DNA from: Nereocystis luetkeana
Taxonomy: Eukaryota > Sar > Phaeophyceae > Laminariales > Laminariaceae
Length of the DNA: 64,000 bases
Direction of reading: 5' to 3'
Assembly (NCBI GenBank): GCA_031213475.1
Contig: JARUPZ010000002.1
Location: 5,341,049 to 5,405,048, forward strand
In this document: in pieces, positions 5,286-61,919 of the stretch
Position numbering within the stretch: the stretch's first letter is position 1
Layout of the letters: every line of letters starts with the position of its first letter
The notes under the pieces: model-generated
Told to the model about the DNA's origin: nothing
Seen by the model: only the letters and a program-made list of their open reading frames with translations
Databases searched by the model: none
Made by a program: the position numbers and the translations under genes

Positions 5286-8200
5286 CTGGAGCAGGCGGCG
5301 GCACGCAGCAAAGGGGTGCGTGACCATGTGAAACATAAAAATGGTGCACACACTTTTTTGCGGCCTCAACCCCAACCCTCTTGGGACTTCGGAGGGGAAA
5401 ATTGGCAACAAAAAAGTGACGGTTACTGCAACCATTGTGGCCACCGGTTGATTGGGAGGCGGTATGCACGATGGGGTCCGAGCTACAATGCAAGGATTCG
5501 TGCAGCACAGATGCACTACGATCCTATCCGTGATTCTGGGCCCTCACACTGCTCGTAGAACGGCTGACAACACAAAACGCTATCATTGTTTTGGTCGTTA
5601 TGTCGGGGTTAATGCCAAAGGGGTTTAAATCTCCATGTTCACAATAGTGCCAAGCCAGTAGAACAAGCGATCGCAGACAGGAAGAGGCCCACAATGAACG
5701 ATTCCATGTGCGCGGCTGCGGCAGCTGTTGGGGGCTACTTGCTGTTTCCTTCTTTCACCACAGGCGTTGCGTTAGCGCAACGCAAGCCGATTGGGAAGCG
5801 CGTGACATTCCAAGCAGCGACAACCACACCGACGAAGAGGGAGGGCGTTTCCTATTCAACCCTTTTACAGCTTGCCTGCCCCCCGTTTTTGGGACAAGAC
5901 ACCTCGAGAAACAGAATGGGATCATTTTTGCAGTACGATGACTTCTGAAGCTGCTGCGGCCATGTTTTGGGGACCAAAATACTTAGAAACAGAGGGGGGT
6001 CATTGTTGCAGTACCAAAAACAACAAAAGTTTTTTTTGCAGTCCCAAAAAAAAAAGGGTTCCACGTTTTTAGGGACAAAAACACTTGGACACACAGGCGA
6101 TCATTTTTGCAGCACCAAAAATAAAAAGGGTTCCACGTATTTAGGGCCAGAACGCTCGGAACTAGAGTGGGATCATTTTGGCAGTACCAAAAGTAAAATG
6201 TCATTTTTGCAGTTTCCAAAAACAAAAGGGGTTCCACGTTATTTGGGACAAAATGCTCGGAAATAGAGTGGGGGTCATTCTCGCAGCACCAAAAATAAAT
6301 ATCATTTTTGCAGTATTACGGAGGACCATAGTGAATACCAGGTAGGACCTATGGTATACATGAATACCTATTAATACCAGGTATATATTTAACCATTTTT
6401 ACCCACAATATTTGGTCCTATTAACTATGGTCCCCCGTAATACCAAAAATAGAAAATATGGAGGGTTCCACGTTTTTTTAGACAAAACACTTGGAAATTC
6501 AAGGGGGTTGTTTTTGAGGTACCAACAATAAAAAGGGTTGACGTTTTTTGGGACAAAACACTTGGAAACACAACAAGGGGATCGTTTTGGCAGTAGGGAA
6601 AAAGAAAAAAAACGTTCCACGTTTTTCGGGACAAAATGCTTGGAAACACAACAAGGGGATCGTTTTTGCGGTATCAAAGTCAAAAGAGTTCCACGTTTGC
6701 TTGGAAACAGAATGGGGTCCTTTTCGCGGTAGCACTCTGACCGGGAACGTAAGTCCCGTTTAGTGTTCACATCAGAGTCCAAACGGTCATTGAAATACCG
6801 GTCAGTGTTATACTGGTATGTACTAAAAAACCTCAAGAAACCCTTCTTTTTTTTTTTGGGGGGGGGGGGGGGGGCGGGTAAAGCGCTTCAGGAAAAAAGA
6901 GTGGGATCGTTTTTGCAGTGCCAAAAAAATAACCTCCCTTTTTCTTTTTTCAACGCTCGTCCGGCTGACCTGATCCGGAGGAGGCACTAGCTTGTTTGTC
7001 CACATCGCGAACGGGAAGAAATGAGTCGTCGGTCCGGTTCCTTCCCTCCCCTTGGCCTTGGCCGCCATCAGACGGAACACCTCCACCGACTTCGGGTCGT
7101 ACGGAGAAACCACGAACTTTCCAGTCTCAGGGTCCGGCCTGTCCCGCCCCCCGCTGGGTGCCACCCAGATGAATTGTCCCCCCACGCCCTGAAAGCGACG
7201 GAGGACGCACCAGGCAGGGCGTGTATATGGGGAAAAGCGGCCGTGGGGAGACCTCGTCATTGGTCGCAGTGGCAGCTTGCATCGGAGTTACGTACAGTGT
7301 GCACGCACAAAGAACAGGGGGCACCTTCCATCATAACGTTGCCGGTCGCTAAAAGCGCTACATGTGACAACCCTGCTGGAACTTGACTCAAGTACGTAAC
7401 GATCCCTCTGCATAGTGCCAGTATGCGTCAAAGACATCGGCACTACATGTAGCGGCAACCGGCACTACTCGGCACACTGCCACAGTATTTAATCCCATCT
7501 GCTGTGCCAAGCGATTTCACAGGCACTAAAACGGGCAGCCGGTACTACCCAACCGGCACTATAAAGGGGCCACTGCTGCTGTACACGAAGCGGCCTAAAA
7601 TATGCGATAAGTACAATCCTGTCAACATTCGTCTAAAAATAAAAAAAAACGGAGGCGCGTGCAAGCAGAAGGAGCAGCAACAGTACGAGTTATCGCCATG
7701 CCGCCTGCGCGTGTGTCGTATCAGGTGCCTCCTTCCGTTTCACTTCGGACACATCCCCTATCCCCTACCACCCCAGCAGCATATGCCTCCTTGGTATTAT
7801 GCCGCTACGTGTGGACGATGCTGAAACCGTCCCTTTTTTTCAGTCCCTGCTCCCTTTGAAGCCGCAGAGAGGCTACCGTAAACATAAAACATACCAGATA
7901 CACCAGTATATAGAACACGGGCGACAAAATACCACACCCCCTCGGGCGAATTTCAAAGCTGATTTTCTCTGAACAACGGGGAGAGAGCACATGCCGACCG
8001 ACCCGTTTGTTCATGGAAAAACATATCCCGACGAGATCTGCTCAAAATCGCTGCCATTCTCGATGGGTGCGCGCCCTAAGCTCCCCCCCTGGATTTGGAA
8101 AAATCAGCTCCGAACTTCGTCCCAAGGTGTTCCGCGATAAGCTATACAACACGAGAGTTGTACTGCTGCCGATGGTTCATGGCATTTCACGGTATCCCAC

Positions 8201-11200
8201 TGACCCGCGGTATCTGTGACACTACTCGGTATCTGTGACACTACTGTACACGTACCCGCACAAACTGTAGTACTCCCCCCCCCTCCCCCCTCGACCTCTC
8301 CCGCACAAAAAAACAAGCAACAAACTACGGCTCTTGAGGGAATCAGGTCGCGGTCCCTATCGCCCTCGAGTTTTTTTTCTATTATACAGAAACTCGAGAG
8401 CATCCTGTTTTTTTCGGCATGGAGGAGCACGCGCGGGATGGAGGTCTCACCATCATCTCCGCCATCTTCTTCAAGGTTCGCACGTTGTGCTTCTGCTTGT
8501 CTCCCTTCAGCTCCGGCGGGGTTTCCATGTACTTCTTCGAGAAGATACTGCCGGGACCATCACACCGCGAGGTCGGCAACAGGGAAGGGCAGAGTGGTGC
8601 GGGCGCATGGGCGGGGGGGTACTCATGTCATCCATGGTCGTAGTCTTATTACCATAGACCGTCGCATCCCGGGAGGGGGGGGGGGAGACTTTCTCTCGTT
8701 TTGGTACAATGATGGCGACGATGGTAACATTCATATACAAGTTCATTTCCATGAAGTCTACCCCGTGCTCACAAAAACGGGCTAAGGCTAAGCGTGTCTC
8801 GTTTGGAAAAAACAAACAAACTAGCACAATTATTAAAAAAAATGGGTATGTATCGCAGTAGTAAGGGGGCGGTACTGCGGGCGGTGGTATACCATCCTGC
8901 ACCACTTGCAATCTACCAGGTACCAGGTATACAACACTGCTGTAGAACACATCCATGGCACCAGATGCACGCACAGCAGTAGATCTGGGAAGGAGAAGAG
9001 GACTGCGTAGCAGAACAAAACAGCAAAAACTCTAAGCAAGCGTTTCTTGCATCAGCCGATCATGACCTATTACAGGTTGAGGAAAAAGTCAGCCGCCAAA
9101 CGCCAAGTGCACTATCGAACACAAAAATCATGGAACCGAACGAGAGTGCTCCTAGGGGTAAACTCTAGACTATATTCTACTCGTAATCGTAACGAATACC
9201 AGGTAGGAGGTAGAAGGTACTACAGCAGTAGTAGCTGCGTACGAGAGACAACAATGACCCGGGATGGCAGTCCTGAAACGAGCTCAGTCGAAAAGGGAAA
9301 ATGCCCACCACACCACCCCTCCCTGCAGTCGGTAAGTGTGACCCCCTCGCGTCAAAACTCCACCAGCGCAGACGGAGTTCCACGAGTGGGCGTGTACGTA
9401 CCGCAGCGTCGGCACGGCTCAACACCCCAACCCATACCCTCACGCCGTCGTCAACAAAAACAAATAAACGAACAAATATATACACCAAGAGCCTGTGAAG
9501 TACTATCAATACCATGCAAGCTGTCGCATATCACCAGAATACTAAACTTGGGAAATAGAGTAAAGGCCTTTGCAAACAACTTTCACTTCTTCTAAATTTC
9601 AGAAAATTGTATCAAGATAAACAACAATTCAGAACACGATCAGGGCCCTTTTATGGGTCGAAAAAAAGAGCCAGTGAAAAGTAAATAGTTCCCAACAACG
9701 AATTGGGCTGCACAGCAACAACTGCCGTATAACACGCAGGACAAAACACCCCCTCGTGCGATTTTCCAAGCCGGGGAGGGCGTACTGGATACGCCGAGCG
9801 ATGCGTCTATGCAACCTTCTCGACGGAATTTTTCCGAAGCCACCAATTTTGTTGTGTGTGCCCCCCCCCCAATGTTTTGGAGGAAACCGGGTCTGAAATT
9901 CGTCCCAGGGGGTGAGTTATCTTGTCACCCAGTGTGTTACGGTACCGCTGTGCCACCTCCTTCCCCGTTCCAGTCCTTTGCTCGGCCACATTTTCCGTTT
10001 GAACCGAGAACCACAGGGCCGTGCACATATTTACATTGTTGTTCAGCCACTTTTCCCCCCCGTTTGAACCGAGAATCACAGGCAGTGCGTTCACCAGAAA
10101 AGGTTCCTGCCCATGCTGAAAGGGATCGCCAGAGGATCCGTCGTCACGCGGTGGCCTGCCACGTTTATGAGTTGCGAAGCCATATCCCCGTACCCCTCGC
10201 GTTCCATCAAGAGGCTGATCACCTGGGGGTCGGCCTCCGTCTGCGAAGAAAACCACCCGAGAAAAACAAACGCAGCAGAACCATTCGGCGACAACGAACA
10301 TCAGCACGCTGAGTGTTAGGATATCGTCTCAAAAGTTTCGATAAAGCCATAAAAAATATCGAACTTGCGATATATCGTAGCGGACACGTTTTGCCCTCCA
10401 TCCCCCGTGGCATATTCCCATGTTTATGAAGATAGTAAACGAAAGCCTCGATGTACGAGGCTACCAAGTGTTGAAATCGTACCGACTGGATTTTGTGTCT
10501 ATCGGTGTGATAGTCGGTATCATATCGTACTCGACTCTCGTTCGATATCCAACACTGCGATAAGCACAACCACTCGACAACAACGAATATCAACAAAACC
10601 ATTCAACAACCCAGCAAAGCAGCGAAAAAACAAAGCACAAATAGTTGGTACTGCAATGCACAGAAACATAGATGTGTCTCTAATTATAGATGTGTCTCTA
10701 ATTCCCAGTAAATTGTCCCCAGAACGGAGAAGGCAGTAGTCCTCAAGTGGTGAAGAAGCGCAAGACGCCGTGCGACAACCTCTTGGGGAGAGAAAAACAC
10801 CACTCTACGATCGCGTCAAATGTGTTTTTTTTTCCTCGATCGGAACGGACCGGTTCTCGGCACGGTCTTGAGCACCCCATCGCACACATTCACGCTCGTT
10901 TTCCTCGCCCGGTCATGCAACTGCCACATCTGCGCGACTGATCTTGCCGCATGCGACTCTTAACGCTGTCTCCGGGCCGAGTCACACACTACGTCGGCTG
11001 TCGTTAAGCTTCTATCACGGTAAGTCCTCAGTAGCAGCATGAACTTCAGAGTTATTTCATACTAACTTCTCAACAGCACGACCCGACAACTATTTCACAA
11101 CAGGTCAGCAGCACGAGCCGACAAACACAGATGCAAACCACAGCCCCATGGCTACTATCAGGTAGGCGCTGCTCTACGGACAGCACCCCCCCCCCCCCCC

Positions 11201-13077: not shown

Positions 13078-16000
13078 CGGAGGCAAGCCACTGTTAGGAA
13101 TTCCTTGCGTGTGAAAGACGAGAAGGGAAGAGGTTGAGCACTTTCGTGCACCCGCTCAAGCTCCCTCCACAACCGCGCCCCCCTTTTCGGGGGCAAACTT
13201 CTCGAAATTAGGGTAGGATAACTTCTTGAAGTAACACACACATATATATATATATATACCTGGTAGTAAATAACGAAGGCCACCAACTCTCCAAAACATT
13301 TCGTTTGAGCGCAGCACTATGTACCACGGTAGTAGAGAGGGGACTCCCCTCGACTTTGTTTAGTTTCCTGGTTCAAAACAAGAGAGCGAAGACTCTCGTT
13401 GTTTTTGCCACCCCGTCCTCACATGGACTTGTCCAGCTCCACCAAGGGGCGGAAGAAGTCGTTACCCCAGGCGTAGAGGTCCACAGGCTCCCTGGTAGAC
13501 GCGTGGAACAGCTCGAACTCGTACGGCTTCTTCATGTTTTCAGGCACCATCTGTTATCCCGAACGCAAGGGCGGACAGGTGGACGGACAGACAAGACACA
13601 CAGGAGGCACGCGTAAAATATCTTCAAAAATTAGCGTCTCTATTGACTATGGTGTTGGCGAAGTTCCGATCATGGTTTGGTTTGGCCAATTTCTATTTCC
13701 CCGATCCCAAAAAATAATCAACTTCCCAAAATCAGGACCCAAAATGGGCTCATATGGCCCATATCTTCACAAAATTTTCGGGTTGGGTTTGGCTTTTTGG
13801 GTTTCGATTAGGATCGTCAAGTTATTGGCCAGGACAACCCGGATCGCCCCGGACGAATGCAAACATCGTATTTGGCAAGTCATCATATTCATCTACGTCA
13901 GGTTCTCATGGCACAGCGTACAGCAGCAGCCAGAAGGAGTGAGGCATGATACATGGGTTGCCTCTCACCACCAAGCTATCTAACCAAGCGCACGGCCCAC
14001 CACCAAGCCCTCGTTATGGCCGGCAAAGGCATACGGCCATATGCGGCGGACGGCTGGCAGGGTGCAGCTTCAACATCGTTGACGGCGCCGTGTGCGTTGT
14101 GGACTGCTGCTGAAGTTGTTGCTTTGCTGTGCTGCTTGTTGTTGCTGCGGCAACAAAGCAGCGGTACTCTGGGCTCTGGGGCGTGTTACCGCACCACAGG
14201 CTCACCCACAGCACGCCTACGCACGCACTGCACAACAGGCCCCGGTCGCATCGATTAACACTCTTCGTATGACTGCCATGGAACACACAGAGCAGACACA
14301 AACGCAGCGAGCCACGCAGCAGCAGCAGGGAGCACTATCTCGTGCGAAGCCGTTGGTGTTCCATTTTTCGTACTTTTAGTTCGTTTTTTTGTCATTTGTT
14401 GCTGTATTCTAAATTCCTAGAATTGTATTTCCAGTTCAAAACCGAAATGGTCGTTTTGGGTTCTCGCAAGCAGTTTCAAACCCGATTATGTTTTGGTTTG
14501 GTGAGTAGCCTGTGGTTCGCGACCAAACCATAATCGGTTCTTTCGCTAACACCCTACTGCAGAAAAAAATATTCGATAGCAGGCCAACAGACCCCGACAA
14601 ACATGCTACTTACTGTCAATAGTACCCGCACGTATATATGTTTTTTTCTTTGCGGCGAAATAAGGTGGGGAGCTAAAAAAAACGGACGTTTCGGCGATCA
14701 GCATCTGGCTCCAGCGGAACGTGGGCACTGCGTGCAATTCTTCCCTTAACACGTGCATCGGCGGAACAACTCAACCAACCCCTAATGTGTAACCCTGCTT
14801 GGGAGCGATTCTCAGCTTTGAGCTGTCTTTACAGCTACTGATTGCGCAGTATCTCACGATGGCGTCTCGCCGATGACGCGTGCTTGGACGGAGATATCCA
14901 CACGTCCTCTCAGACAAAAACCTTCACCAAAAAGAAAACCGGCCAGTGGTACGCCCGATCCCACAACTTTCCACCGGCAGGACAGATCATCTACAGGTAG
15001 ATAGATCATCTGCAGATCATCTGGATCTTGACTTGCCTTTACGATTTTTTGTGCTGGATCCGTATAGATAGTACAGATGCAACCCAGGGAACATGCGCTA
15101 TTCTATGAAGTAGATCCATACGGATTAGGGCCGTTTCTAACGACTGAATGAAATAGCAAAAAACTTGCTATTTTGGCAAGACATACTTTCCATAAAGTTG
15201 CCAAAACTTTCTATCGTGAAACACTGCATATGTGGCAATATTTGGCACATATTCACAACTTAACGCCCTCAGATTTTTCGTCAAACCCCTTACAGCTGCA
15301 GCAGCAGGTAGTTCAGCAGGTAGCCGACGACGGCACGCTATGGAGTAAATGCTGCCGCAGAAAGGACTCCAGGCGCAGCCAACGTACCTCAGAGGTTGGC
15401 AGTTCTTCCAACCCGGCCAAAATCCCCTGGGAAAAGCTGGGACGGGTGGGAAAAGCTGGGACGGCTGCTGTTTGTTATTCTGTTTTAGCCCCCGCACAAA
15501 ATGATACCCATGTCCCATCCACCCACGGCTCACGGGCAGTGCCGCCAGCCCTATCATCGCTGTGATCAATGCCACCGGGTATCCTTCGTATCTCTCTCTA
15601 TTCCACAAGTTAGAGCGAGTCTAGCGTGGGGCGTCGTGGGGTGGTCTGGTTTGTACAACCTTGTGTGCGCGTTATTGGGCTAAAATAGCAAATAAATAGA
15701 AATTATCAATTTACATAAACTTGCCAACGAAGCAGAACGGAAATATCTGAAAAAAAAAACTTTGGCATTTCTTTTTGCTATTTTGGCAAGTCCACATTTC
15801 CACAAACTTGCTATTTTGGCAAATAATTTGCCAAAATATGTGTCGTTAGAATATGCCCCTTATGCTGCTTCCACCCGCGCTGCGACATGAGATGTAGGTC
15901 ACACATCTGCCTTGGCAGATCTGTCCATTGCTTCAAGTAAGGGATCGATTACCTAGATGTCCCTATGCGTAAGCATGTATGCTTCGGTGTCACTTTGTAA

Positions 16001-19000
16001 AAACGAATACCCTCTTCCTGGGGCGTCGTGAACCGCCCTCAATCTATATACCAGGCAGGGTGTATGGCCGATTGAAACTGTCGCTGAGGCTGTCGACGTT
16101 CCTCGTGCTACCATATCACACGGGTGATATTAAAATAACCCCCCCCCCCCTCGAACAAATGCATTAGGCGCACATACCATGCGCCAAGTAAGGGGGGGGG
16201 GGGGGGGGTGTACTCGATAGGAGAGATGTACTCGATCTCACGCATGGCCGTAGTCGTATGACCATAGACCCTCGCATCCCTACAATGCCGGGACGGAGCA
16301 TGTCGAGTTTTCACCGACCAGGCAGACATTGCTTGCACCAAGCGCGAAGCGCCGTGAGGTGTCTGGCGAGTCGCATGAAGGGTGAGCTGCATCCTACTAA
16401 GAACCGCTTTTGTGGCGGACTTGCATATGGACGACAGCTTCAATGAGTTGTATTAATTTCCGGTGTAGGTTTTTCCAGAGACAGCAATGGGAGTACTATG
16501 AAACTGCCTCTTGGGTGCCTTACCTTGAACACTACGTGATACGATCATTCCCAATTGTACGGAGTAAAGGTTCTCTACCTCGCACAAATGATTTAACTCG
16601 ACGACCACATGTGGGCGACCGCCAAAAAAAAAAACAAAAAAAAAACGGTACCCTAGTTGTCTAGCTCACGTAGTGAGCGGCATGTTTTACAGTGTCGTTG
16701 CCAACCGACGCCAACCCAACCTACATAAAATAGGGGGGGGGGTGTAGTTACTCATGAAACAAACACCAAGCAGTTGACCGACCGCACGACCAAAAGGTAG
16801 GAGCGCCAAGCGGTACGCAGGTATCTTGATGTCTCGAAGAATAGAAACCAGTACAAAATGTGGAGGGATCGTCGGCCAAGCTTTCGACCGCGAAGGCCTA
16901 CTCGGGAGCATTAGTCTGGTAGCTACCCATGTTGAAACGTACGCACGACGGAGAAAGCGACGTACGAGGCATCCCGATATGTGAGTTAAGACTTTGTGTT
17001 ACGCAAGCCGTCCCTGAACTTTGCACGGTGAAAGGAAATGACCCCCCAGGAGGAGACCAACCAGTATAGCAGCGGGGCAAGGAGATAGAAGATACAATCG
17101 TGGGACGCCAAAATGAACACCGTGCCCATAGCCTGACACAAACAAACGTGGGGCACTTGTGTCGAGGGTGTTGAACATGGCCCCAGGCTACGAGCCCGTG
17201 TTGGAAACACTGTCTAGTGTGGTGCGCCGGCAAAAGGACTGAAAGACATCAGACCCTCAACGAGTACTAGGATTGGGAAGTCCCAGTACCTTGAACGCTG
17301 TCCAGTAAAAAATATGAACACAAACAAGCTGGAGATATTCTCGGAAGAGATTGGCAGAGAGACAGTGGGGCAGGGTGGGTCGAGAAAGAAATATTGGCAG
17401 GGTAAAGCACTAGTAGTGCTGACATTTGGAGCTCCTAGCGACATGACTAGGATTGACTTCAAGGGGAAGTGCGACGAAGTAGGACTATACTGTTTTGCAG
17501 TGCGTAGGAAAAGTAGAACGGGAGGGAGAACACTTTCAAGTCACGCTAAAGCCGAAAGCGAGCACGGTGTGGCAGAGGACAGAAGCAGAAAAAGTGTCGG
17601 CATGAAATTAGAAGACAAGGATAAAGAGTATGCATTAGCTGACGGAATGGCGAAGCTGAGACGTGGTCCTTGGGTGAACGAAGGTAAAGGGAGGCAGGGA
17701 AGAGTAAGTGGCTAAAAGGGAATGGGGGAGAAACATAGGGGCGCAGAGCAAGCAGATAAAAAAAAACAGAAACGGATACGGAAAGAAAGCTCAAAGATAA
17801 AATAATCAAAATATTGGTAGCGACAACGGAGAAGAAACGACACACAGGAATAGGGTGGACAGTGAAACGAAAGGAAATGAGAATGGCATATGTGGATTCG
17901 CCGCGGAATAGCGCAAAAAGGATACAAATTGCCGAACAAGTAAGCGCGACCTAGGCATAGTGGGAATTCAAGAGTCGTGGGAGAAAGGGGGGGGGGGGGA
18001 GACAAGATGCAAAGTTGGAGAGTACGCATGGATAGGGAAAAAAAGGAAGGGACAGAACAGCAAGAATACGGGGGTGGGGGGCGTGGGGTTCCTAGTAAAA
18101 GAAAATCGGTGGGACATAATAGAGGTGATTAGAGGCACTAATTTCGACGAAAAAACATACCTGGTAAGGATAAAGATACCAGGGGGAAGGGGAGAAAAAT
18201 ATAACTTCTTAGATAACATCTATATGCCCCCAGAGTCGAAGAGTACGGTAAAAGATATACGGAGGAAGTTCGGACGAGTAGCAGTAGATGTACAGAAGTA
18301 TAAAAGACAAGAAGAGGTAGTAGTAGGAGATTTTGATTCAAGACTTGGGAAGGCACGCAACCCAAATAGAACATTGGACACTACAGAGAAGTAACCAAGA
18401 ATAACAATCGGGAAGAGATGACGAAGTTCCTTAAGCACAACGAGATGAAGATGTTGGACGACAGAGTAATAAAAGGCAGAACAGGAATGGACTAGACGCG
18501 GCATACAGAAGGGAGAAAGCTCTGCCCTTGACTTTAAAGCGGTAGAAAATGGTAGCGAGGAAACGGAAGTACACGTATGCGCAGCGGACACAGGAGCTAT
18601 GGATCACTGCCAAATATGGGCAGTCAGCAGACGAAAGCTATCAAATGTAGGCGAGGTAGAAAATACTACAGATGGAGAATAGATACACCGAAAGTAGAAG
18701 AAAAAACGGGAAGAGTTCCAAGGAGAGATGGCCAAAAATGCAAGGGAAATTCTCCGAGTTGTTGGAAAGAATAGATACGACGTATAACGATGTGGAGAGG
18801 GATGATGAAGGAGATAGGACAACAGAACGATGGGAGCATTTGGTCAAGACCACAGCAAGTATAAGAAATAGGGAAGCAGTTCATAGTATGCAACAGCGGA
18901 AAGGAGAAAGGCTTCCCTCGATAAAGGATGAAGGAGGCTAGTAGCGGAAAGGAGAAAGGCACACGCAATATATACATCGAGTAAAACTACAACAGGGTGG

Positions 19001-22000
19001 GAGGAACATGCTATAGCTATAGCTAGAAAGAAAGTAAAAGAGACGGTAGCGACTAAAGAAAGGGATATGAAAAGACGTAGTAAATAAAAAAAAACGATTA
19101 CTTTTGAGGGCGGGATGAAGCAGATGTGGGTAGGGATAAAAGGGATACCGGGCAAACAAGCAGGAGAGGCAGGTCCAAGGAATAGCTACTTGAAGAGCAC
19201 ACAACGGCAAAATGGTTATTAGTAGGAGTTCGAACGGGAAAACGAAGGTACTACTAGAGCATTACCGTACGCTAGGAACGCCCACAGTCAACGGGGTGCT
19301 CGACGCAGGATTCAAGAAAGAAGTCAACCCGTGGGCAGGGGCGACCGTACATTCATCAGAAGGGGAAGACGGTGGTTCAGAACGGTACAGAGAAAGCTCA
19401 AGAGGGAAGACGTAAAGAAGTGTGTAGCTAAACTTGAAAATAGAGAGGCAGCAAGGGCAGACCAGATAATGAAAGCAATTATGAAGTACGGGGGAGAACG
19501 CTTCCTATGATGGTTACGTTGTATAGCTGGACACGGAAAAACGAGTACCAGGTACGCAGCTAGGCGGTGGATGATAGGAGGAGATAAGGTTGACCCGGGG
19601 AACTATAGAGGGACAATGCTGTTAAGTACAGTAGGCAAAACGTTTAATAATATATTGAACGATAGAATGGTAACAATGATGGAGAAGGAAAACAGAATTA
19701 GCGAAGGGTGGGCAGGGTTTAGGTCAAACCGGTTCTGCGTAGATCATGTGTATATCTTAGGTGAGATCATCCAAGATAGGAAAGACGCGGGACTAACGGC
19801 GCATTTTCTGTCTATAGATGTACAGAAGGCCTACCACACAGTCCGGAGAAATGAATGGTGGAAAAAGCTGTGGGAATGAGGGATCAGAGGAAGGATGTGG
19901 AGAATGATGAAAATTTCGACGGGAATGTGCGAGAATAGCCGTGATGCTGGACGGGGAAATATCGAAGTATGTTGATATTTTACAAGGAGTTGCACAGGGA
20001 TGTACGTTATCATCTAATATGTTCAAGGTATATATTAACGACTTAATAGTAGCAGTCGAAGTAGTAAAGCAGGGAGTCACGGTGGGGAAAGATACGGTGT
20101 CGGGGTTGACGTTTGCGGATGACTTCGTGGGGATATCAGAAACACCCAGAGGATTGCAGAAACAAATCGAAAAGGCGCTTGAACACACTAGGGAATGGAG
20201 GGTGGCGGCGAACGAAAAGAAGTGCGCAGTAGTTGTATGCAACGAAGAGGTGAAACCGGTAAATTTCAGTTGGAAGTGGGGAAAAGATGAAATGCCGATC
20301 GTAGATCAGTATACCTACCTTGGCGTAGAGATAAAATAAGACTGCTCATGGGATATACACATATAGCAAAAGTAATAGGAAATGTTAAGCACACGTCGGC
20401 AAGATGGATGCGATCCCAACGGACTCGCACCTTGACACTAGGATTAAGATATGTATCACGATGAAGGTGATAGCACCAAAGTTAGAATAAGCAGGAGAAC
20501 CATGGGAAGGGAACGCGAAGTTCGTAAAACCGTTGGGAACAGCACAGATGACGGCAGCTAAAAAATACCAATAAAAATACCAATATGCTCAATCAAGCAC
20601 GACGACTAATACAGTACTAAGAGGAGAACTGCGCATGCACCCACTTGATAAAAAGTTGAAATGGCAACATAAAGTAAGGAACAATATAAAGTGAGGAACA
20701 TGACAATAGAGGCTGCCAGCCATAGTTGATAGAGCTGTACAGGAGAGAAACTAACGGGCGAGCTGGAATAAGGTGGGATACGAGTAGCGTCGTTGAGAAA
20801 GTGTGGAGGGATGTAGGAGGAAACCAAGAAGAGGTGATGTCCGCAGAGAAGTTTGGGAGATACAAGACAGAAGTAGAAGGGAGGACAGACAGAAAGAAGG
20901 GAAAGGCTAGCGCTAAGAAACAAGGTGAAATCGGAGAAACACTTAGGAGATGTGCGGGGGGGCTAAGCTAAGGGATAGGAACGGAAACGTATTTGCACGG
21001 CCCGATGGACTTCCCGAAAACAACGAAACTGCGATTTCGTGCGGGGGACCTGGAGCTGGCAGAAAGAAGAAAGAGGTATACCAGTAGCCGGGAGGAGGAG
21101 GAAGTAGATGCACAGACGTGCCCGTGTGGCAAAGCGATAGAGAGTAGAACTCACATAGTTGAAGAATGTGAAACGTACAAGGAGGAACGGGGATGTGTCA
21201 GAAGAGGTGAGAAACATAGACGAACGTGACACGGAGGAGTCTGATACATTAGACAGCAGCGAGAAAACGATCGCTATCCAAGGAGATAGATGGTGGCCAC
21301 AGGCGGCGAACCAGGAAGGGGATACGATTAGCAAAAAGTTTCTTATGTAATATATGGAAACGACGCAACGAGCGCCCAAATGTTGGAGGTGTCTCTATTA
21401 GGAGTAGGAGCGGTGCTCCGTCTCGAAAGGGATGCGTGGTCAATGGTCAAACAAATGACCAAGGCAGGTAACAAATGAGTACGCCTCCGCACCCCCCCCT
21501 TCGGACAAATGTCACTGAGACTGTGGTTAATTTTCTCAACAACTGGTACATAGAGTGCAACTGCCGAGCGATGGATGCGTCTATGGAAATATTTCGACGA
21601 TAAGTCTTCCCATAGCCACCGTTTACGTTTTGTGTGCCTGTCTCGTATCGTGGAAAAAAAAACGCCTCCGAAATTTTGTCCCAGGGTGTGTTATATGAAC
21701 CCTTTCAGTACCGCAGTCTCGTTTGGGAGACCAACTACTTACAAATTGAGTGGTTTGTGACCAAAACAGGGCCGCAGTCCTCAAAGGGTCAAGTGTTGTA
21801 CGGTAATCAACAGCAAGCATAAGGTCAGCGCGAACGACGCAAAGACCAACCCGATCTACCCAACATTGACACCGCTGCGTTTGTTTGCTTGAACGTTTGT
21901 TTGCTGCGACACATCACAACAAGAACAAATGTACATATAATATATATACTATTACGGGGGACCATAGTTAATAGGACCAAATATTGTTAGTAAAAATGGT

Positions 22001-24327
22001 GAAATATATAGGTATTTATGTATACCATAGGTCCTATTAACTATGGTCCCCCGTAATATATATATATATAAGCATGAGGCACGTGAGGACACTCTCCGTC
22101 TCTTTCGTCAAAACAGAAGGAAGGGGACTTTCTTTGTGCTCAATACCAGGTGTATTGTACGATATATATATATACCAGGTATACATTATACTTCGTCATC
22201 ATGTGTGGCAGCAACAAATGACCCCCCAAGTATATAGCAAGTCCCTGCGTTCATTTCGATGACGGAGGTGTGGACAGTTCCGTCTCATGTGTCTCGCGTC
22301 TTGTCTTACTGATCGAAGATGCTACACAAAATACCTGGCGCGTGGTAATGTATATATACACGTAACAATAAGCGCCTTGCCACCACCGGGAGAAGAAAAA
22401 TACCTTCTTCCTCGTGACGACGGACCTGCGTGTTGTGATCGCCCTCTATAATAGCCCAGATGTTGCGTTATTGTTTAGTTTTGTGACACACCAATGAGGC
22501 AAGCAGCAAGAAGCGCACCCTATGCACATTCGTTCCGCGACGAATTTTCCTGTTAGTTACCGACGGCAGAGAGCGGGGAACTCTCTTTATGACCGACGAC
22601 ATAAGAGTGGGAGGGAGAGATCTGACGTCAACCATGGTTCTGTTCATTTTTTTCTTGACACAACCATGATGCAACAACCACGACCACGAGGCGGTTCGCA
22701 ACCAGACATCGTTCCCGAGGAAGTGTCCCTTCTTTATGACCGTATGTATGGAGACGGTGGATTTCCCCTGACGAAAAAAACGTAGATCAAGAAGTACTTC
22801 ACTCCAGCATCATCGATAGTAAGCAAACAAAAAAGCGACACGGCCTGTGCTGCCTGCACGCGGAAACATGTCGAACCTCCGCACAAAAAACGCGAACATC
22901 AGAGGGGTATTATTGTTTGTACATATTGTGTAGGGACGCGAGGGCAAATTCCCATTTCCAGAAAATCATTTGCAAAAAAAACAACTTCAGAAAATCCTCA
23001 CAATAATCGAAAGCAATGTACAGCAGTCCAAAAAACGAGAACAATAACATGCCACGTGTGCATGCGAACATTTGCATCTTCCCATTTCCATCCACGACAG
23101 AAACGCGAACAGCAGTATGATAGCATTGCCTGGGGTGTTTTGAAAACAAATGGCACACCTCTATCCTAATAGAGTATATACCTGGTACGAAGAATGACAC
23201 CAAGGTGTTTATTTATGATGCTACACCATGACTTGCAAATATTCCCCTTCCCATCCAGTTCTAGATACGTACACTGCTGCAGAGTCCCACTCGATGTTTC
23301 TCCGTTCATTCGGGGCAATTCAATCGACTCACTTGAGATGAGGTCGGGTCCTGTCTAAACGGTCAGAATAGTCGCCTCGTTTCTTTCGTTTTTTCTCCCG
23401 TTCAACGGCATGCCATAGAATGTGTATGTCGTGCCTGTCGTACCCAGTACGATGAGCAAGCATGGCTATTCTGGTCACTGCGTAACAATGTATTACGGGG
23501 GTCCATAGTTAACAGGACCAAATATTGTTAGTAAAAATGGTTAAATATATAGGTTTTTACGTGTACCTTTGGTCCTATTAACTATGGTCCCCAGTAATAG
23601 TAGATCCTCTGCTGTGTCGTGGTTTTTGTGACAACAGAGCTTGTGACACTCTCAAGCATAGATGTCAGGAGACATGTCAAGCAAGGCAAAAGTTGCTGTC
23701 TGTCAAGGGTGTACGGCCGAGTGTTCCACACTAAAACCTAGTAGTGTGGTGTCAGTTAAGGCATGTCAAGGCAAAAGTTGCTGTCTGTCAAGGGGTGAAA
23801 ATGCTGTGTCCTGACATCTTTGCTCTCTAGGATAGAAAATCGGCACGTACACTGGTTTTGCTAGGTATTAATAGGAGGAACGGGATAATGTGAAGAACAC
23901 ACACCAGCATCCAGAACAACAAGCCTTACGGCTGAAGAATGCACACAGAGTAGACCCCCCCCCCCCCTCCCGCAGGCAGTACCATAACACAACCCTGTTT
24001 GGGCTACGTATATATAAACAATGACAGAACATCCTACACTAATTCCAAATATGCCTCCCACCCTCCCTCAACCCTGTTTGACTACGTCTATATACTGACG
24101 AAATCATCCAATACAAATTCCAAGTACTTTGTCCACAAAAACGTGGGTGCATGCGAATATAATGGAAACCCCTCGCGTCTTGCCTTGATGAGAGTGCCGA
24201 GGCTGAACTGGAACTGCTCCGGCGTCGTCCCCGCCATCTTTGCGCACTTGGAGTATCCCTCTAGGAACTCCCCGAAAATTGCCATAAATGAAGGATCCAT
24301 CCCATCGGCTGCCATGCCTTCCATCAC
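5103..24327 (-). CDS. Plastid-type glycerol-3-phosphate acyltransferase, spliced gene (at least 7 exons)
   Basis: Soluble GPAT transfers an acyl group from acyl-ACP to sn-glycerol-3-phosphate in the plastid stroma, the first step of plastid glycerolipid synthesis. Exons read on the minus strand: 24170-24327, 13423-13550, 11204-11285, 10095-10240, 8451-8547, 6970-7188 and 5103-5285 (stop TAA). Together they give about 340 residues covering the N-terminal helical domain and the full catalytic domain: SNHQTEADP (the NHx4D catalytic box), GRNLFC, SKKYM, KQKHN, IWVAPSGGRDRPDP and LVPPPDQ. Introns are about 10.6, 2.1, 1.0, 1.5, 1.3 and 1.7 kb. Splice phases agree at every junction except the first. 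The transit peptide and 5' exon(s) were not found; they should lie between 24.3 and 30.5 kb. The plant gene is called ATS1/ACT1, but I give no symbol because the species is unknown. Confidence 0.93.
5884..6740. repeat. Minisatellite in the last GPAT intron
   Basis: About ten diverged units of 70-95 bp. Each carries GGGTTCCACGTTTT, then GGGACAAAACAC or GGGACAAAATGC, TTGGAAACA, GGGGATCATTTT or GGGATCGTTTT, and TGCAGTACCAAAAA. One M1 MITE (6316-6440) has inserted into the array. A further half-unit is at 6900-6930. The repeat lies between the last two exons and is the main reason that intron is 1.7 kb. Confidence 0.85.
6316..6440. mobile_element. M1 MITE copy 1 (TA target), carries micro-insertions
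   Basis: Ends TTACGGAGGACCATAG and CTATGGTCCCCCGTAA, flanked by TA on both sides (6314-6315 and 6441-6442). Inside, relative to other copies, it has TACCAGGTA at 6336 and the compound TA-TTAA-TA-CCAGG-TA at 6369-6383. It lies in the last GPAT intron, within a minisatellite. Confidence 0.92.
6857..6874. repeat. Poly-T then poly-G tract
   Basis: T run followed by about 17 G, within the GPAT intron close to the 3' side of exon F on the coding strand. Confidence 0.85.
6970..7188 (-). CDS. GPAT exon F (APSGGRDRPDP)
   Basis: Acceptor CGCTTTCAG, donor GATCAG|GTCAGC, 73 codons in phase 0. It starts GVGGQFIWVAPSGGRDRPDP and continues through SPYDPKSVEVFRLMAAKAKG to LVPPPDQ. WVAPSGGRDRPDP is the strongest GPAT signature in the window; it contributes to the glycerol-3-phosphate pocket in solved plant structures. 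Confidence 0.97.
7391..7580. repeat. Dispersed GCCGGCACTA-rich repeat, uninterrupted copy
   Basis: Shares GATCCCTCTGCATAGTGCC, CGGCACTACTCGGCACACTG, CATCTGCTGTGCCAAGCG, ATTTCACAGGCACTA and AACCGGCACTA with 60590-61135. That copy is broken by two M1 insertions; this one shows the empty target sites. Related shorter pieces are at 36640-36700, 50160-50340 and 50530-50670. It lies in the intron between exons E and F. Confidence 0.85.
7932..8132. mobile_element. M4 TIR element, copy 1
   Basis: About 200 bp with imperfect inverted ends. The left end is ACACCCCCTCGGGCGAATTT..AAGCTGATTTT; the right end is the inverse of ACACCTTGGGACGAAGTTC..AGCTGATTTTT. Three other copies share this plan. It is in the intron between exons E and F. 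Confidence 0.75.
8451..8547 (-). CDS. GPAT exon E (SKKYM, KQKHN)
   Basis: Acceptor CCCGGCAG, donor ATGATG|GTGAGA. The first T completes a Cys codon, then it reads IFSKKYMETPPELKGDKQKH and NVRTLKKMAEMM. This matches the family CVYSKKHxxDxPELxxxKxxxNxRTLKEM. Phases 2 in, 0 out. Confidence 0.95.
8620..8690. repeat. Fragment of the F fold-back repeat
   Basis: Contains CATCCATGGTCGTAGTC, CCATAGACCGTCGCATCCC and a short G run, as in the copies at 16.2, 26.4 and 27.0 kb. It lies just upstream (coding strand) of GPAT exon E. Confidence 0.65.
9744..9918. mobile_element. M4 TIR element, copy 2
   Basis: Left end AACACCCCCTCGTGCGATTTTCC, right end GAAATTCGTCCCAGGGGGTG. The central GAGCGATGCGTCTATG is shared with the copies at 21.5 and 54.9 kb. 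It is in the intron between exons D and E. Confidence 0.75.
10095..10240 (-). CDS. GPAT exon D (TEADP, catalytic Asp)
   Basis: Acceptor TTCTTCGCAG, donor CTG|GTGAAC. It encodes TEADPQVISLLMEREGYGDM, ASQLINVAGHRVTTDPLAIP and FSMGRNLF. It begins exactly where the HQ of the catalytic box ended, so the box is split by an intron. VAGHRV and PFSMGRNL are conserved in the family (VAGDRV..DPL..PFSIGRNL). It ends in phase 2 (TG), completed to Cys. Confidence 0.95.
11186..11201. repeat. C16 run abutting the GPAT exon C donor (G16 on the coding strand)
   Basis: On the minus (coding) strand the intron begins GT followed at once by sixteen G. See the separate finding on pairing with the C24 run on the other side of the exon. 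Confidence 0.95.
11204..11285 (-). CDS. GPAT exon C (ends at SNHQ)
   Basis: Acceptor ACGCAG, donor CACCAG|GTGGGG. 82 bp encodes LAGKENLAKIAEYLAKGENV followed by FLLSNHQ, with the catalytic His of the NHx4D box as the second-last residue. The exon is bracketed by a C24 run on its acceptor side and a G16 run immediately after the donor GT (coding strand). Phase 2 in, phase 0 out. Confidence 0.95.
11306..11329. repeat. G24 run before the GPAT exon C acceptor (C24 on the coding strand)
   Basis: On the coding strand a C24 run ends about 20 nt before the exon and may serve as an all-cytosine polypyrimidine tract. Confidence 0.95.
11530..11640 (+). mobile_element. SINE-A fragment
   Basis: Matches the SINE-A 3' body: ACCGTAG, G-rich run, GAGAGCTTGCCATGTGACCC, CGGAT, TGAGTTACGA, then a purine-rich GGAGGGAGG tail. 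It is 5'-truncated and sits in the intron between exons B and C. Confidence 0.6.
11640..12790. other. Intron sequence without gene; low-complexity GATC-rich stretch
   Basis: Within the 2.1-kb GPAT intron. Contains repeated AGATCATC and TAGATGATCTG words at 11890-12150, one TATTAATA near 12218, and diverged TTGGCCGACT repeats at 11690-11745. No coding signal. Confidence 0.5.
12790..12945. repeat. Minisatellite, about 46-bp unit, four partial copies
   Basis: Units share CTGCAGGTC or CCGCAGGTC, AACCA, GACGTC or GACGTTT, and GGAACGCC or GGGACGCC followed by CGAGAA. It lies in the intron between exons B and C. Confidence 0.8.
13030..13077. repeat. G48 homopolymer
   Basis: The longest homopolymer in the window, inside a GPAT intron (C48 on the coding strand). 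A run this long is prone to length error in sequencing and is a strong G-quadruplex candidate. Confidence 0.9.
13423..13550 (-). CDS. GPAT exon B
   Basis: Acceptor ATAACAG, donor CCAT|GTGAGG. It encodes MVPENMKKPYEFELFHASTR, then EPVDLYAWGNDFFRPLVELD and KS. This matches the family segment with PFxFxxHHxxxREPFDYYxFGxxxxRPLID. It ends in phase 2 (AT), completed by the first G of the next exon to ATG (Met). Confidence 0.93.
13560..15127. other. Large GPAT intron, left part: no gene seen
   Basis: Start of the 10.6-kb intron (in plus coordinates). No conserved domain was recognised. TTTGGGTT-type repeats at 13670-13810 and 14360-14540 look like pieces of one older repeat split by later insertions. 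Confidence 0.4.
15128..15859. mobile_element. Harbinger-like non-autonomous TIR element
   Basis: Left end GGGCCGTTTCTAACGAC; the right end is the inverse of GGGGCATATTCTAACGAC. Both are flanked by TTA (15125-15127 and 15860-15862), a 3-bp target duplication typical of PIF/Harbinger. Subterminal AATAGCAAAAAACTTGC and GCTATTTTGGCAAG repeats occur in both orientations. The 732-bp interior shows no transposase. It lies in the large GPAT intron. Confidence 0.8.
16139..16510. repeat. F fold-back repeat, copy at 16 kb, with C12/G17 hairpin
   Basis: Begins with a C run (16139-16150) facing a G run (16192-16208), with an inner GGCGCA...TGCGCC stem. Then come CATGGCCGTAGTCGTATGACC-like sequence, CCTCGCATCCCTAC, GCCGGGACGGAGC, AAGCGCGAAGCGCCGTGAGG, GAGCTGCATCCTACTAAG and AGCAATGGGAGTACTAT. 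The same order occurs at 27.0 kb and, inverted, at 26.4-26.7 kb. Confidence 0.8.
17940..18394 (+). pseudogene. LINE endonuclease (EEP) domain
   Basis: Reads LGIVGIQESW (catalytic Glu), GGVGFLVKE, YMPPES and VVVGDFDSRLGKA (the GDFN-like box). This order identifies an apurinic/apyrimidinic-type endonuclease that nicks the target for reverse transcription. The frame ends at a stop near 18392. Confidence 0.88.
19571..20339 (+). pseudogene. LINE reverse transcriptase domain
   Basis: First part: PGNYRGTMLLSTVGKTF, WAGFRSNRFCVDHV and FLSIDVQKAYHTV (first catalytic Asp). After a stop and frame change near 19878-19940: ILQGVAQGCTLSSNMF, YINDL, TFADDFV (catalytic FADD) and YTYLGVEI. The catalytic residues are still recognisable, so decay is moderate. 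Confidence 0.9.
20993..21229 (+). pseudogene. LINE C-terminal Cys/His region
   Basis: CPCGKAIESRTHIVEECETY resembles the CxCG...THxxxEC motif seen after the reverse transcriptase in several LINE clades. It is followed by a highly charged tail. Confidence 0.7.
21490..21693. mobile_element. M4 TIR element, copy 3
   Basis: Left GCACCCCCCCTTCGGACAAAT, centre GAGCGATGGATGCGTCTATG, right AAATTTTGTCCCAGGGTGTG. It directly abuts an M2 MITE on its right. Confidence 0.75.
21697..21791. mobile_element. M2 MITE copy (diverged)
   Basis: GAACCCTTTCAGTACCGCAG at the left, inverted GGGCCGCAGTCC..AAAGGGTC at the right, with TTTGTGACC and GGAGACCAA around the centre. It is the most diverged of six M2 copies. 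Confidence 0.75.
21952..22056. mobile_element. M1 MITE copy 2
   Basis: 105 bp with near-perfect ends TTACGGGGGACCATAGTTAA and its inverse, flanked by TA (21950-21951 and 22057-22058) within a TATATA run. Confidence 0.95.
22060..23420. other. No gene recognised; within the large GPAT intron
   Basis: Contains TACCAGGTA at 22173 and TACCTGGTA at 23179. Open frames here show no conserved motif. Confidence 0.4.
23425..23905 (+). mobile_element. M3 TIR element copy with two nested insertions
   Basis: Begins TATGTCGTGCCTGTCGTA and ends with GAAGAACACACACC, as at 38.9 and 39.5 kb. It is interrupted by an M1 MITE (23493-23597) and by a ~150-bp insert whose ends are inverted (GATGTCAGGA...TCCTGACATC, 23665-23818). 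That insert carries AAGGCAAAAGTTGCTGTC twice. A TATTAATA lies at 23866. Confidence 0.75.
23493..23597. mobile_element. M1 MITE copy 3
   Basis: TTACGGGGGTCCATAG...CTATGGTCCCCAGTAA flanked by TA on both sides; nested in an M3 copy. Confidence 0.93.
24170..24327 (-). CDS. GPAT exon A (N-terminal helical domain)
   Basis: Follows acceptor TTCGTTAG and reads VMEGMAADGMDPSFMAIFGE and so on, through FLEGYSKCAKMAGTT to SLGTLIKARRE. This aligns with the helical-bundle region of plastid GPATs (plants read MEELYxNYKxAV...EIVLSNMT). The 5' edge is well supported. The 3' edge is uncertain: the nearest GT (GAGGG|GTTTCC) leaves phase 2 while the next exon starts at phase 0. The frame stays open to about 24088, and a phase-0 donor (TTT|GTATTG) lies further on, but it would add about 14 residues not usual in the family. 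Confidence 0.75.
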
Positions 24328-39856: not shown

Positions 39857-40036
39857 GCGTTTTAGCATTCATTGAAGGAGAGAATCATCGAAAGAAACAA
39901 AGGGCGACAAATCGAATACCAGGTAGTAGCCAGGTAGAGAGGAAAAGTAGAAAAAAAGCGTCGTGCCCCCCGAAGGAGATGTGGCAGACACAACCCAAAA
40001 CCAACAAAAGAAACAAGACCGTATCATATAGAAGAC

Positions 40037-42965: not shown

Positions 42966-43330
42966 TGTACCAGGTATGTAAAAGTACTTATTATTCCATC
43001 TATACAAAGTACGTACGTACCAGGTATATCATAGACGTATGATAGCATACGACATACGACAGGTAATGTTCTACGCATATGTCATGTACCAGAAACCACA
43101 TTTATACCTTTATACCCGACGGTACTACTGCTGTACGCGAGGAATACACTATTAATACTTCCGCTGGTGTTAATATCATAAGAACGGTAGGCGGGGGTAC
43201 CTGTCCGTTGTGGGTGGCATTATACAGCAGTACGCTATTAATAGTACATAATTACATAATTACATTAATATGCACAACCGGTCGCCTCTGTGGTCTACAG
43301 TAGTGGTTACCCTCGAATGCTGCTATTAGT
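42966..43330. other. No gene; micro-insertion-rich stretch
   Basis: TACCAGGTA at 42968 and 43018, TACTGCTGTA at about 43126, TATTAATA at about 43148 and 43229, TACAGCAGTA at 43212, all in 365 bp. Confidence 0.6.
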
Positions 43331-43839: not shown

Positions 43840-43849
43840 AATCGCAATA

Positions 43850-44469: not shown

Positions 44470-44870
44470 GAGATGGCGGCCAATTGCAGAAGCCGACAAA
44501 AATATGTACTGTATGTACGATTTATACCAGGTATACCAAGGGTATACGTTATGAAGTGCGTCGAAAACTGTTCAAATCGGGTGTTTCATTATATTCATAC
44601 CTGAACAAAAACGACAACATCCGCCACCGACCCAAATTACGGCATCTACGAAGTCTGTATACCAGATACGGTGCACATGATACTTCCAGCCGGCAGGTGT
44701 ATATCATATGTTGGTAAGCAGTGTCGACTAAACATGCGAAAAAACGAAAAACTGAAGGGCGTTTTCTCGGTATTCTGCACTGGCTGTAGGTCTGCTGACT
44801 GCTTACATCACCGCGAAATTTCCGACATATGATCACTGGGGGTAATTTGACATAAGTTCCTGTGCATGAA
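44470..44870 (+). repeat. K dispersed repeat, copy 2
   Basis: GATGGCGGCCAATTGCAGAA, CGCCACCGACCCAAATTACG, TAGGTCTGCTGACTGCTTAC, ATCACCGCG and CTGGGGGTAATTTG. Includes TACCAGGTA at 44524. Confidence 0.7.
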
Positions 44871-45089
44871 AAAGTGGACATTTTTTTACATATGATACGT
44901 GCGCATAATATACACCACGTATGTTATACCAGGTATACCAGCACCAGGTACCTGGTATATAGTACCCACTACAGCAGTACATGACGTATCAATAGTGGCC
45001 CCTCTTACAGTGCCGGTTGCCCGCTACAAGTATAGACACACACTCCAGGAATTCTGCAGCGTCAGATTTCGTCTTCCTCATATACGGAC

Positions 45090-46189: not shown

Positions 46190-46998
46190 AAGCCAATGGG
46201 AAAGTTAAGTGATAACAAAAGGTTTGAATTTCAAAGATACCCTCAAAAAAGAAATACAACACGCTTCCTATCGGCACGTTTATGGAAAAAAAAGTTGCAA
46301 ACTTTTGGAAAAGGCCGAAAAAAGCAAATCTGGCCAACTTCGGCTTGAGAAAAACTAACGCCGATCTTTGGTTCGAAGGGGCGAAATTCCGAGTCCTTGA
46401 CAGACATCGATCGACAAACCAACGACTGCGTCATGAATTCTGAACAGAGTGCGCTCGTTAGGGGCTCCGACCCACAGTAGGGTCACCGTCTCCACACCAT
46501 GGCCGGTGTCATGTGGCGGGAGCTGACCAAGCGTATGATAAAAAAAAACAAATTGGCCGCTGGTGTGCACAAAACAGAAGACAAAACTTCTCCATCCGTC
46601 TTGAATGGCAAAAAAATAGGCCTTTTTTCAGGTTTGGGAGGATACCGTAGAACGCCGCCGACAAGCTCTCGCCCCCTAGACCATGGATCCACCTGATATC
46701 TTCGAGGCCGTCATCTGTATTCGTTGGCCTTGCCGGACACCGAGCGGGATGGCCGTGGGCTGAGTCTATGTCGGGATCGAGCGTTGATCATCGCACGAGC
46801 TGGTTTCTATCAGCGTGTTGACAATTTGCAACCAAGAAAAACAAATTGCGCCGCCTGCAGCCGTTGGGGGGGGAAAAAAAACAACAAACATGTTTTCTCT
46901 TTTTTCCCACAGCGGCGGTACGAGGAAATTTTCGGCTGTTCTATGAAAGCAGAAACTTTTGGACTTCGCGTTTCCATTGGCATACCTGGTAGGTCTAA
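46190..46998 (-). mobile_element. D1 TIR element, minus-strand copy
   Basis: About 0.8 kb, inverse of 52718-53531. Shared: CGTTAGGGGCTCCGACCCAC, GGTCACCGT, AATTCTGAACAGAGTGCG, ATCCACCTGATATCTTCGAG, GCGCCGCCTGCAGCCG. The right terminus GCGTTTCCATTGGCATA is broken by CCTGG before TAGGTCTA. The left terminus is eroded. Confidence 0.8.
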
Positions 46999-51050: not shown

Positions 51051-51249
51051 ACGTACGTTTGTGAAGTTTTCGTATATATCTGTGTTGTTGTTGTTGTTGT
51101 TGTCGTCGTCGTTGTTGTTACAGTATCATTATTATGCTTGCCATCCACGTCATGTGTGTATACCGGTTCGTGGTACCAGGTATCTGGTATCGTATCGTAC
51201 CTGGTAAGTATTTTTACATGCACGGGAACTTCACGTCAACTTATCCGCA

Positions 51250-51515: not shown

Positions 51516-51729
51516 GTAATTACAAAAAGAGTGATCATAAAAACAAAAAATCCATAATATTGATATAATAGTAACAATAATATATACCAGGTATATAATA
51601 TTAATACATACCAGTACCTGGTACACGACGTACGGCACTGCTGCTGTTACTACAGGAGTAGCTGGTGGGCCCTCGGGGCAGGTACCAAAATGATGATACC
51701 TACAAGGGTGTTACTATTTTTCAATCGTC

Positions 51730-55831: not shown

Positions 55832-56049
55832 TTACCAGGTGCCGTATACTGCTGTACCCAGCATCTCGCGCAAGCGTTGGGCATTTTTTTGTTAAAAATA
55901 CAAGGTCTTCTTCCCTTTGGGGCGTGGTTGACTCAAAATCCCGCGGGTGTCGCGAGTTGAAAAGCGGAGGCATCATCAGTATCATCAGGCGTTCCTAGTT
56001 ATACAAGTATACCAGGTACTTCGGAAGTATCTCATGCCAGGACAAGGTT

Positions 56050-59275: not shown

Positions 59276-59313
59276 GTCCCAGTAAAATCGTCCTGGTGAC
59301 TCTCTGGTACTAC

Positions 59314-61116: not shown

Positions 61117-61919
61117 TAGAGAGGGACCACTATTGTCGTATCCAGCACACCCATGGGTCCCCTAGAGCAAGTAGGTACGTCTGTGTTCTTACTGGTCAAC
61201 CTGTGGTTCGTTCGTTTCTTTTCCCGTACTCGTACTACTGCTGTGTATACAGTACAAGCACAGACCCAGACTGGCAGTGCAGAAATACATAGACAACGGC
61301 CTGGTGGGTTGGTCATCAGATGCCTGCCTGCTCACCAGGTATATACCCCTCGTAATAACTGTAATATTAAAGAGAAAGCGACTCGTTGTCGTGTGACCTG
61401 TGACACTACAGCAGTAGCTATTGTAACACGTGCAGCGGTAGGCTGCATAACTGGGGACGTGTACTCGTACCAAGATCCAAGTTCTGCTTCAACCTCAACG
61501 AGATAGCGGAATAGTGGTGGCGTTGTCGTTGTACGGCGCGTTGCATACTGGTATACTCGTGCCAGTTTACGTATATACCAGGTAGATCAAGATGAACGTA
61601 TTTATTGTTATTGCCCTCGATGAAATGCATTCGAGCGCTGTTCTCAGTTTGCTTGTCTTTTCTTTTTGGAAGTCGCAGTTGGAGTTGGTGCGAGTGTGGG
61701 GATAGGTCAGTCGGCACCGGCACAGACGGCCCCCCAGCAGGCGGGATTTGGCTCAGACTGAACGTCTGTTTTTTCCTCGTGTTTGGCTCATACTTAGGGT
61801 CTGCGTGCTGGCTATCAGTACTACTCGTGATCGTACTGGGCGGGGATATAGGATATTCGTCGTGGCTCTTTTTTTTATATATGGACCGCGTGATATATAT
61901 ACCTGGTATTTTTTATCAT

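Follow-up and report, generated by a model that had tools for sequence, protein, structure and literature searches.

Why does one nine-letter word stand dozens of times at TA dinucleotides in a single stretch of kelp DNA? The stretch, hereafter the window, comprises 64,000 nucleotides of Nereocystis luetkeana (assembly GCA_031213475.1, contig JARUPZ010000002.1, positions 5,341,049 to 5,405,048), and the word is TACCWGGTA, in which CCWGG is either CCAGG or CCTGG. A sequence-only reading of the window had reported about 48 such words between 6316 and 61908, where chance should give fewer than one, and had proposed that CCWGG arrived with duplication of TA, either as the scar of an excised TA-targeting transposon with CC...GG ends or through an unrecognised micro-insertion process. 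Our results make it very probable that the words are excision footprints of a TA-targeting cut-and-paste transposon of Tc1/mariner type with ends CC...GG.

The window contains 49 words (26 with CCAGG and 23 with CCTGG), 48 of which fall within the range reported earlier; the 49th, TACCAGGTA, lies outside it at 3478..3486 on the plus strand. Dinucleotide shuffles of the window (100 shuffles) yielded 0.47 +/- 0.63 words on average and a maximum of 3, which bears out the chance expectation of less than one. A general excess of TA-N5-TA words, raised by the sequence-only reading as an objection to itself, was not found either, as CCWGG accounts for 49 of the 309 words of this form and the runner-up, TATTAACTA, for 9. 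All further samples were drawn from the same 465-Mb genome assembly, which is that of a kelp by its mitochondrial nad2 (contig C1987), 94% identical to a cluster named from Laminaria solidungula and 92% to Saccharina. The main sample, 352 kb in length, adds to the window 25 loci of ten kb each, taken at fixed coordinates, and 11 further loci obtained by gene searches; part of the analyses was run on a 331-kb subset of it. It holds 160 words where a 4-mer Markov chain predicts 3.6, and at least one word occurs in 23 of the 25 ten-kb loci (mean 3.84). Counted genome-wide, as the sequence-only reading had suggested, the word occurs 182,395 times and its reversed form, used as control, 1,744 times; the density is about one word per 2.5 kb. 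For each intact word there are 0.63 one-mismatch words more than expected (an excess of about 101 versus 160 intact), corresponding to a mean divergence of the scars of about 7% per site; scar formation therefore seems to have been spread over a long time.

In repeats with several copies the word is a 7-bp insertion, CCWGGTA having been added at one TA such that TA is duplicated on both sides. The repeat M1 is a miniature inverted-repeat transposable element (MITE) of 107 bp with ends TTACGGGGGACCATAG and 40 full copies in the 331 kb; it is short, carries terminal inverted repeats (TIRs), has TA on both sides and exists in many copies, as expected of a TA-flanked MITE. These 40 copies bear 12 insertions of at least 4 bp, namely a 43-bp duplication, an ATAG duplication and ten insertions of the form TA-X-TA, eight of which contain CCWGG or a one-letter decayed form of it, the others being TTAA and CCGG plus TTAA. 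Two of the eight scarred alignments show a 5-bp instead of a 7-bp gap because the copy differs nearby.

The polymorphism can be observed directly within the window, where M1 copies are given without strand and all CCWGG scars on the plus strand. An unscarred, TA-flanked M1 copy with ends TTACGGGGGACC...GGTCCCCCGTAA lies at 21950..22058. The copy at 6315..6442 bears one TTAA and two CCWGG scars, the first being TACCAGGTA at 6336..6344 and the second, at 6375..6383, adjoining the TTAA scar at 6369-6376. The copy at 43742..43842 has a CCWGG scar at 43774..43782 and a TTAA scar at 43798, and in the copy at 33689..33809 the string TA-CCGG-TA-TTAA-TA is inserted at a single TA. Both M1 examples of the sequence-only reading, at 6336 and 43774, thus stand. 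Its other two examples were reproduced as well: the D1 end at 46979 carries a scar (46983..46991) lacking from the copy at 53521, and the M3 repeat at 39576 carries one (39578..39586) lacking from the copy at about 38998. The two M3 copies also differ by 4 bp, CGTG, and a third copy, at locus L020, has CGTG and no scar. The scars at 18158..18166 and 19546..19554 are likewise lacking from copies of their repeats at locus L030.

For a genome-wide count at a single site, we collected all exact copies of the M1 stretch AACCTATATATTTAACCAT, allowing inserts of 1-14 bp at its TATATA. Among 4,561 copies, 3,659 are empty and 902 (not necessarily all independent) carry an insert, a fraction of 19.8% that describes a hot site and is not a genome mean. 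TACCWGGTA is contained in 71 of the 100 inserts listed and in 57 of the 64 listed inserts of seven bp. Further inserts at the same TATATA include CCGG, CCATGG, CCTAGG, CCAAGG, CCCTGG/CCAGGG, CTTCGAAG and CTCCGGAG; CCATGG, CCTAGG and CCAAGG occur once each among the 100. At a control point of M1 not located at TA, only 101 of 7,661 copies (1.3%) have an insert of 1-14 bp and 7,560 have none; of the 100 inserts listed there, nearly all are duplications of one base or of a short tandem stretch, and TACCWGGTA is in none of them. Repeat copies and site count agree on a 7-bp insertion with TA duplication.

Recurrence at one TA can also be followed in individual copies. In four copies of M1 one and the same TA carries a scar, CCAGG in two and CCTGG in two; the four share a mean identity of 0.834 versus 0.844 for all pairs (41 copies), and the nearest relative of each is unscarred. 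A word ancestral to each repeat family and merely lost from some copies, the other objection anticipated by the sequence-only reading, is rejected for M1 by the empty sites and by these non-sister scarred copies.

As a separate observation at the M1 site, four inserts, CTCCGGAG, CTTCGAAG (twice) and CTCCGAG, found at G000:C1:19194163, C3:7540890, C3:14161148 and C2:15840935, are as expected of scars from a Stowaway-like family with CTCC/CTTC ends.

The insertions show a target preference. Directly before TA the flanks of the 160 scars favour a purine (A.45, G.40, T.05); further out they favour A at positions -3 (.48) and -6 (.53) and A or T at -7, the other side being mirrored by construction of the count; the preference around TA is palindromic. 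A target matrix built from half of the 128 isolated scars scored the held-out half far above TA background (p = 7e-20). T before TA is also avoided by CCAGGG (12) and CCSGG (16) words, and A at -6 is kept by CCAGGG (12) and CCGG (17). Scars are moreover re-hit by later insertion: tandem pairs with a common TA number 15,917 genome-wide against 2, representing 8.7% of scars, and a right-hand tandem neighbour is present in 14 of the 160 sample scars against a chance of 0.8% per TA. TAs belonging to scars outscore other TAs as targets, partly by construction. In the window, two plus-strand scars share a TA at 8914..8929, 31952..31967, 32324..32339, 36719..36734 and, with mixed orientation, 42332..42347, and three consecutive scars (CCAGG, CCAGG, CCTGG) occupy 39768..39790.

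A second scar word provides a yardstick from an element that is still resident. TATTAATA occurs 21 times in the window against 0.9 in shuffles, and its full form TACTATTAATAGTA 1,131 times genome-wide against 1. M1 begins with TTA, ends with TAA and is TA-flanked. The flanks of TATTAATA show the motif (T.56, A.55, C.51) that also surrounds M1 insertions (n = 43; T.56, A.56, C.56), as expected if TATTAATA is the scar of M1, and the two sets of flanks correlate with r = 0.97, 0.88 and 0.72 over 3, 5 and 10 positions, versus -0.39, -0.26 and -0.15 for CCWGG scars. The match also holds for 75 TTAA words away from M1 ends. In the simplest reading the TTAA word is what M1 leaves on excision, an excision that we infer. 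The pair would exemplify how a scar word can arise in this genome.

By analogy, a CC...GG element would insert at TA in a palindromic context close to W-A-N-N-A-N-R-TA-Y-N-T-N-N-T-W and duplicate the TA. Its transposase would later cut a few nucleotides inside the ends, leaving on both flanks short 3' overhangs starting with CC, which the host would join mostly as CCWGG. Three-nucleotide overhangs CCA and CCT might pair on one A:T, giving CCAGG; alternatively, a five-nucleotide CCWGG overhang might pair with itself with one central mismatch. The rarer joins would be CCGG, CCATGG, CCTAGG, CCAAGG and CCCTGG, with CCATGG, CCTAGG or CCAAGG arising from untrimmed CCA/CCT joins and CCGG from trimmed ones. 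The TAs of a scar would remain good targets, hence a tandem pile-up of scars. Of the alternatives offered by the sequence-only reading, the transposon scar is favoured by the target motif, the tandem re-insertion, the side products and the second scar word matching a resident MITE; its footprint part is supported, while the element itself was not found and we still infer it.

Several searches for the element were carried out. The insert spectrum at the M1 site fits CC...GG element tips, and no candidate element with such ends was found in the up to 352 kb searched. The 121 half-sites TACCWGG without a following TA (278 kb) had no common continuation by eye and hence revealed no TIR. An inverted-repeat scan after TA (331 kb, 292 pairs) returned M1 and other repeats, with CCWGG ends only in pairings of scar with scar; TACC...GGTA pairs with matching arms were mostly such pairings or pieces of other repeats, and the frequent family boundaries in self-alignment were those of M1 and of a TTAA-flanked repeat. 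The pogo-like transposase profile DDE_1 (PF03184) had 28 matches in the genome. PF01359 had no match in the genome, a negative that is uninformative because the same search also gave no match in any control genome. A seventh DDE_1 locus, L038, has arms that cannot be judged because both of its matches sit in a long inverted duplication; these are two pogo/Jerky-like open reading frames (ORFs) at 295-1791 and 3405-4901, in a 1.5-kb inverted duplication of 99.7% identity. Within the window, Rfam at gathering thresholds gave nothing, and eight ORFs had no Pfam family above cut-off.

A number of results weigh against excision of a CC...GG transposon. Searches of up to 352 kb turned up no TA-flanked family with CC ends, the DDE_3 (PF13358) transposase profile had no match in the genome, and six DDE_1 loci with 1.5 kb on each side showed no TA-flanked TIR above shuffles. 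The 902 inserts at the M1 site need not all be independent because a scarred M1 may itself move. In repeats generally (all-against-all BLAST), 342 alleles with an insertion of 4-30 bp were seen, of which only 67 are TA-flanked and 5 hold exact CCWGG; TA-flanked alleles being a minority, the M1 site is therefore hot. CCSGG words (n = 16) do not show the A at -3 and -6. The A/T orientation of neighbouring scars is non-random, a bias that excision leaves without explanation: 40 of the 59 distinct tandem pairs listed (by eye; first 2.86 Mb of G000:C1) have the same orientation, 14 are A-T and 5 T-A, and the inserts listed at the M1 site comprise 41 CCAGG and 16 CCTGG. In the 352-kb sample, 11 tandem pairs are of the same and 3 of mixed orientation (p = 0.057). 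Finally, a uniform footprint of five nucleotides is unusual because assay footprints measure 0-4 bp and rice excisions are mixed: 0-3 or 2-4 bp are reported for ZB and Tc1/mariner elements (PMC7913693) and 0-4 bp for footprints of Passer in cell assays, and only 8 of 94 rice excisions were clean, most others having deletions or fillers.

Scars may greatly outnumber resident elements, because the searches in 352 kb returned no CC-ended family and the genome gave no match to DDE_3. If search sensitivity were complete, which is not the case, the rule of three would limit the elements to fewer than about 4,000 genome-wide, compared with 182,395 intact scars. A stronger version, which we consider a rather doubtful conjecture, would be a self-erasing mobile system in which TA insertions are nearly always excised and scars outnumber elements by tens or hundreds to one. 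Excision may then be scheduled, or tips may be inserted without an element, and the non-random A/T orientation would reflect templating at the joint.

Could the insert have been made without any element? A transposase or repair enzyme might put the 5-bp palindrome directly into TA with no full element ever present, for instance through aborted synapsis of two element tips. Scars so numerous, the absence of a source element from searches in up to 352 kb and the near uniformity of the insert (57 of 64 listed 7-bp inserts) are what such a process would give, yet CCGG, CCATGG, CCTAGG, CCAAGG and CCCTGG at the same site are the expected joins of two trimmed tips, and the TTAA words have their target motif in common with a resident element. 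We know of no such direct micro-insertion mechanism and regard it as improbable. Tandem slippage, or a 7-bp minisatellite process spreading TACCAGG units, would account for the abundance of 7-bp tandem pairs (15,917) and for the predominance of equal orientations (40 of 59 listed and, at p = 0.057, 11 of 14 in the sample). Copying one unit cannot give mixed orientations, however; in M1 the first insertions are found at plain TATATA, and 126 of 139 scar clusters in the 331 kb are single. Slippage may contribute to tandem scars, but the single scars speak against it as their origin, for which we rate it very improbable. Still less credit is due to a selected functional motif kept frequent, for example a binding site: in its favour are the palindromic form of the word and the surplus of intact words (160) over the one-mismatch excess (about 101), but the word turns up repeatedly as an insertion within a MITE and within other repeats, and 0.63 one-mismatch words per intact word are as under gradual neutral decay. 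Least plausible of all is an assembly or library artefact, for which it counts that restriction and methylation sites commonly read CCWGG and which fits poorly with the target motif, the decayed forms, the spread over 23 of 25 loci and the M1 site counts.

The remaining plus-strand scars of the window, which we attribute to transposon excision with the same high probability, are located at 9197..9205, 13257..13265, 22173..22181, 23179..23187, 25719..25727, 33343..33351, 33496..33504, 35097..35105, 36046..36054, 36106..36114, 36493..36501, 36616..36624, 39917..39925, 42255..42263, 42273..42281, 42354..42362, 42968..42976, 43018..43026, 44525..44533, 44927..44935, 44949..44957, 51174..51182, 51198..51206, 51585..51593, 51615..51623, 56010..56018, 61576..61584 and 61900..61908.

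Other repeats were encountered in the course of the analysis. TA-CAGCAG-TA (e.g., TACAGCAGTA / TACTGCTGTA) occurs 44 times in the 352 kb against 1.9 expected, with diverse flanks, and is perhaps a third scar word. CGAC was found in 8 TA-flanked 6-bp alleles of the all-against-all BLAST, and each of the three shown rests on comparison with a single other copy. A TTAA-flanked repeat about 97 bp long, with ends reading TTAACCC[CT]TTTAGA or nearly so, is present in the window at 32913-33009, 59315-59409 and 40037-40126 and in locus L009 at 377-473; with its CCC ends it resembles piggyBac-type MITEs. Locus L008 harbours, at about 3400-5170, a satellite-like array, its GCTGCCTACAGACAGCTA units running in either orientation, one stretch of which is broken by CCAGGG and TTAA scars. 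On the minus strand of the window near 1-655, the end of an ORF resembles the start of a Ty3/gypsy reverse transcriptase.

Since the scars of DNA transposons are short and varied, their excision is difficult to trace in genomes. In this kelp the phenomenon is real and strong, its new aspects being scale, uniformity and a missing source. Some 182,000 near-uniform intact scars form a dense fossil record of excision, from which decay, target choice, repair outcome and site re-use can be read in a single assembly. They suggest that counts of resident elements can greatly understate past transposition. If the element is truly gone or always leaving, how this comes about is a new question. In addition, the 7-bp inserts, one about every 2.5 kb, form a class of markers for kelp that are small indels.

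How does this swarm compare with known systems? A literature search, judged by title and the start of the abstract and with most subscription journals and bioRxiv outside its coverage, gave no report of such a scar swarm, and a text search for TACCAGGTA led, among the matches listed, to subjects unrelated by title. The internal eliminated sequences of ciliates are also TA-flanked, thought to be transposon-derived and removed in great number; once they are excised, one TA stays behind in the somatic nucleus. This precise type of excision is not what we observe, since the kelp scars keep two TAs and five nucleotides in the assembled genome. Closer in lineage, Mariner-Tc1 elements and MITEs of the brown alga Ectocarpus form 17 families with 11,912 copies according to the available sections of PMC12477816, in whose main text, as far as accessible, the words footprint and excision are absent. 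The TA-targeting M1 could be of that kind.

The closest likeness is with the footprints of Tc1/mariner and Stowaway elements. In the accessible portions of the respective reports, Sleeping Beauty and mariner make their first cut 3 nt inside the element and the 3' overhangs are end-joined into the footprint (PMC7827188); excision of Stowaway/mariner-like MITEs leaves the target site duplication and short end sequences (PMC4561436); and Triticeae Stowaway footprints consist of 2-4 bp next to one TA and 1-2 bp next to its counterpart, with a second Stowaway insertion reported at the TA of a footprint (PMC1925063). As in these systems (Sleeping Beauty, ZB, Osmar/14T32 and Triticeae, to the extent that the sources describe them), the kelp scars consist of two TAs around a few nucleotides, here putatively derived from element ends, take several forms at one site and receive later insertions at their TA. 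Unlike the published footprints, which in the available texts come from plasmids or single loci, or from mixed rice excisions (94), a single five-nucleotide form dominates here, with about 182,000 copies in one genome.

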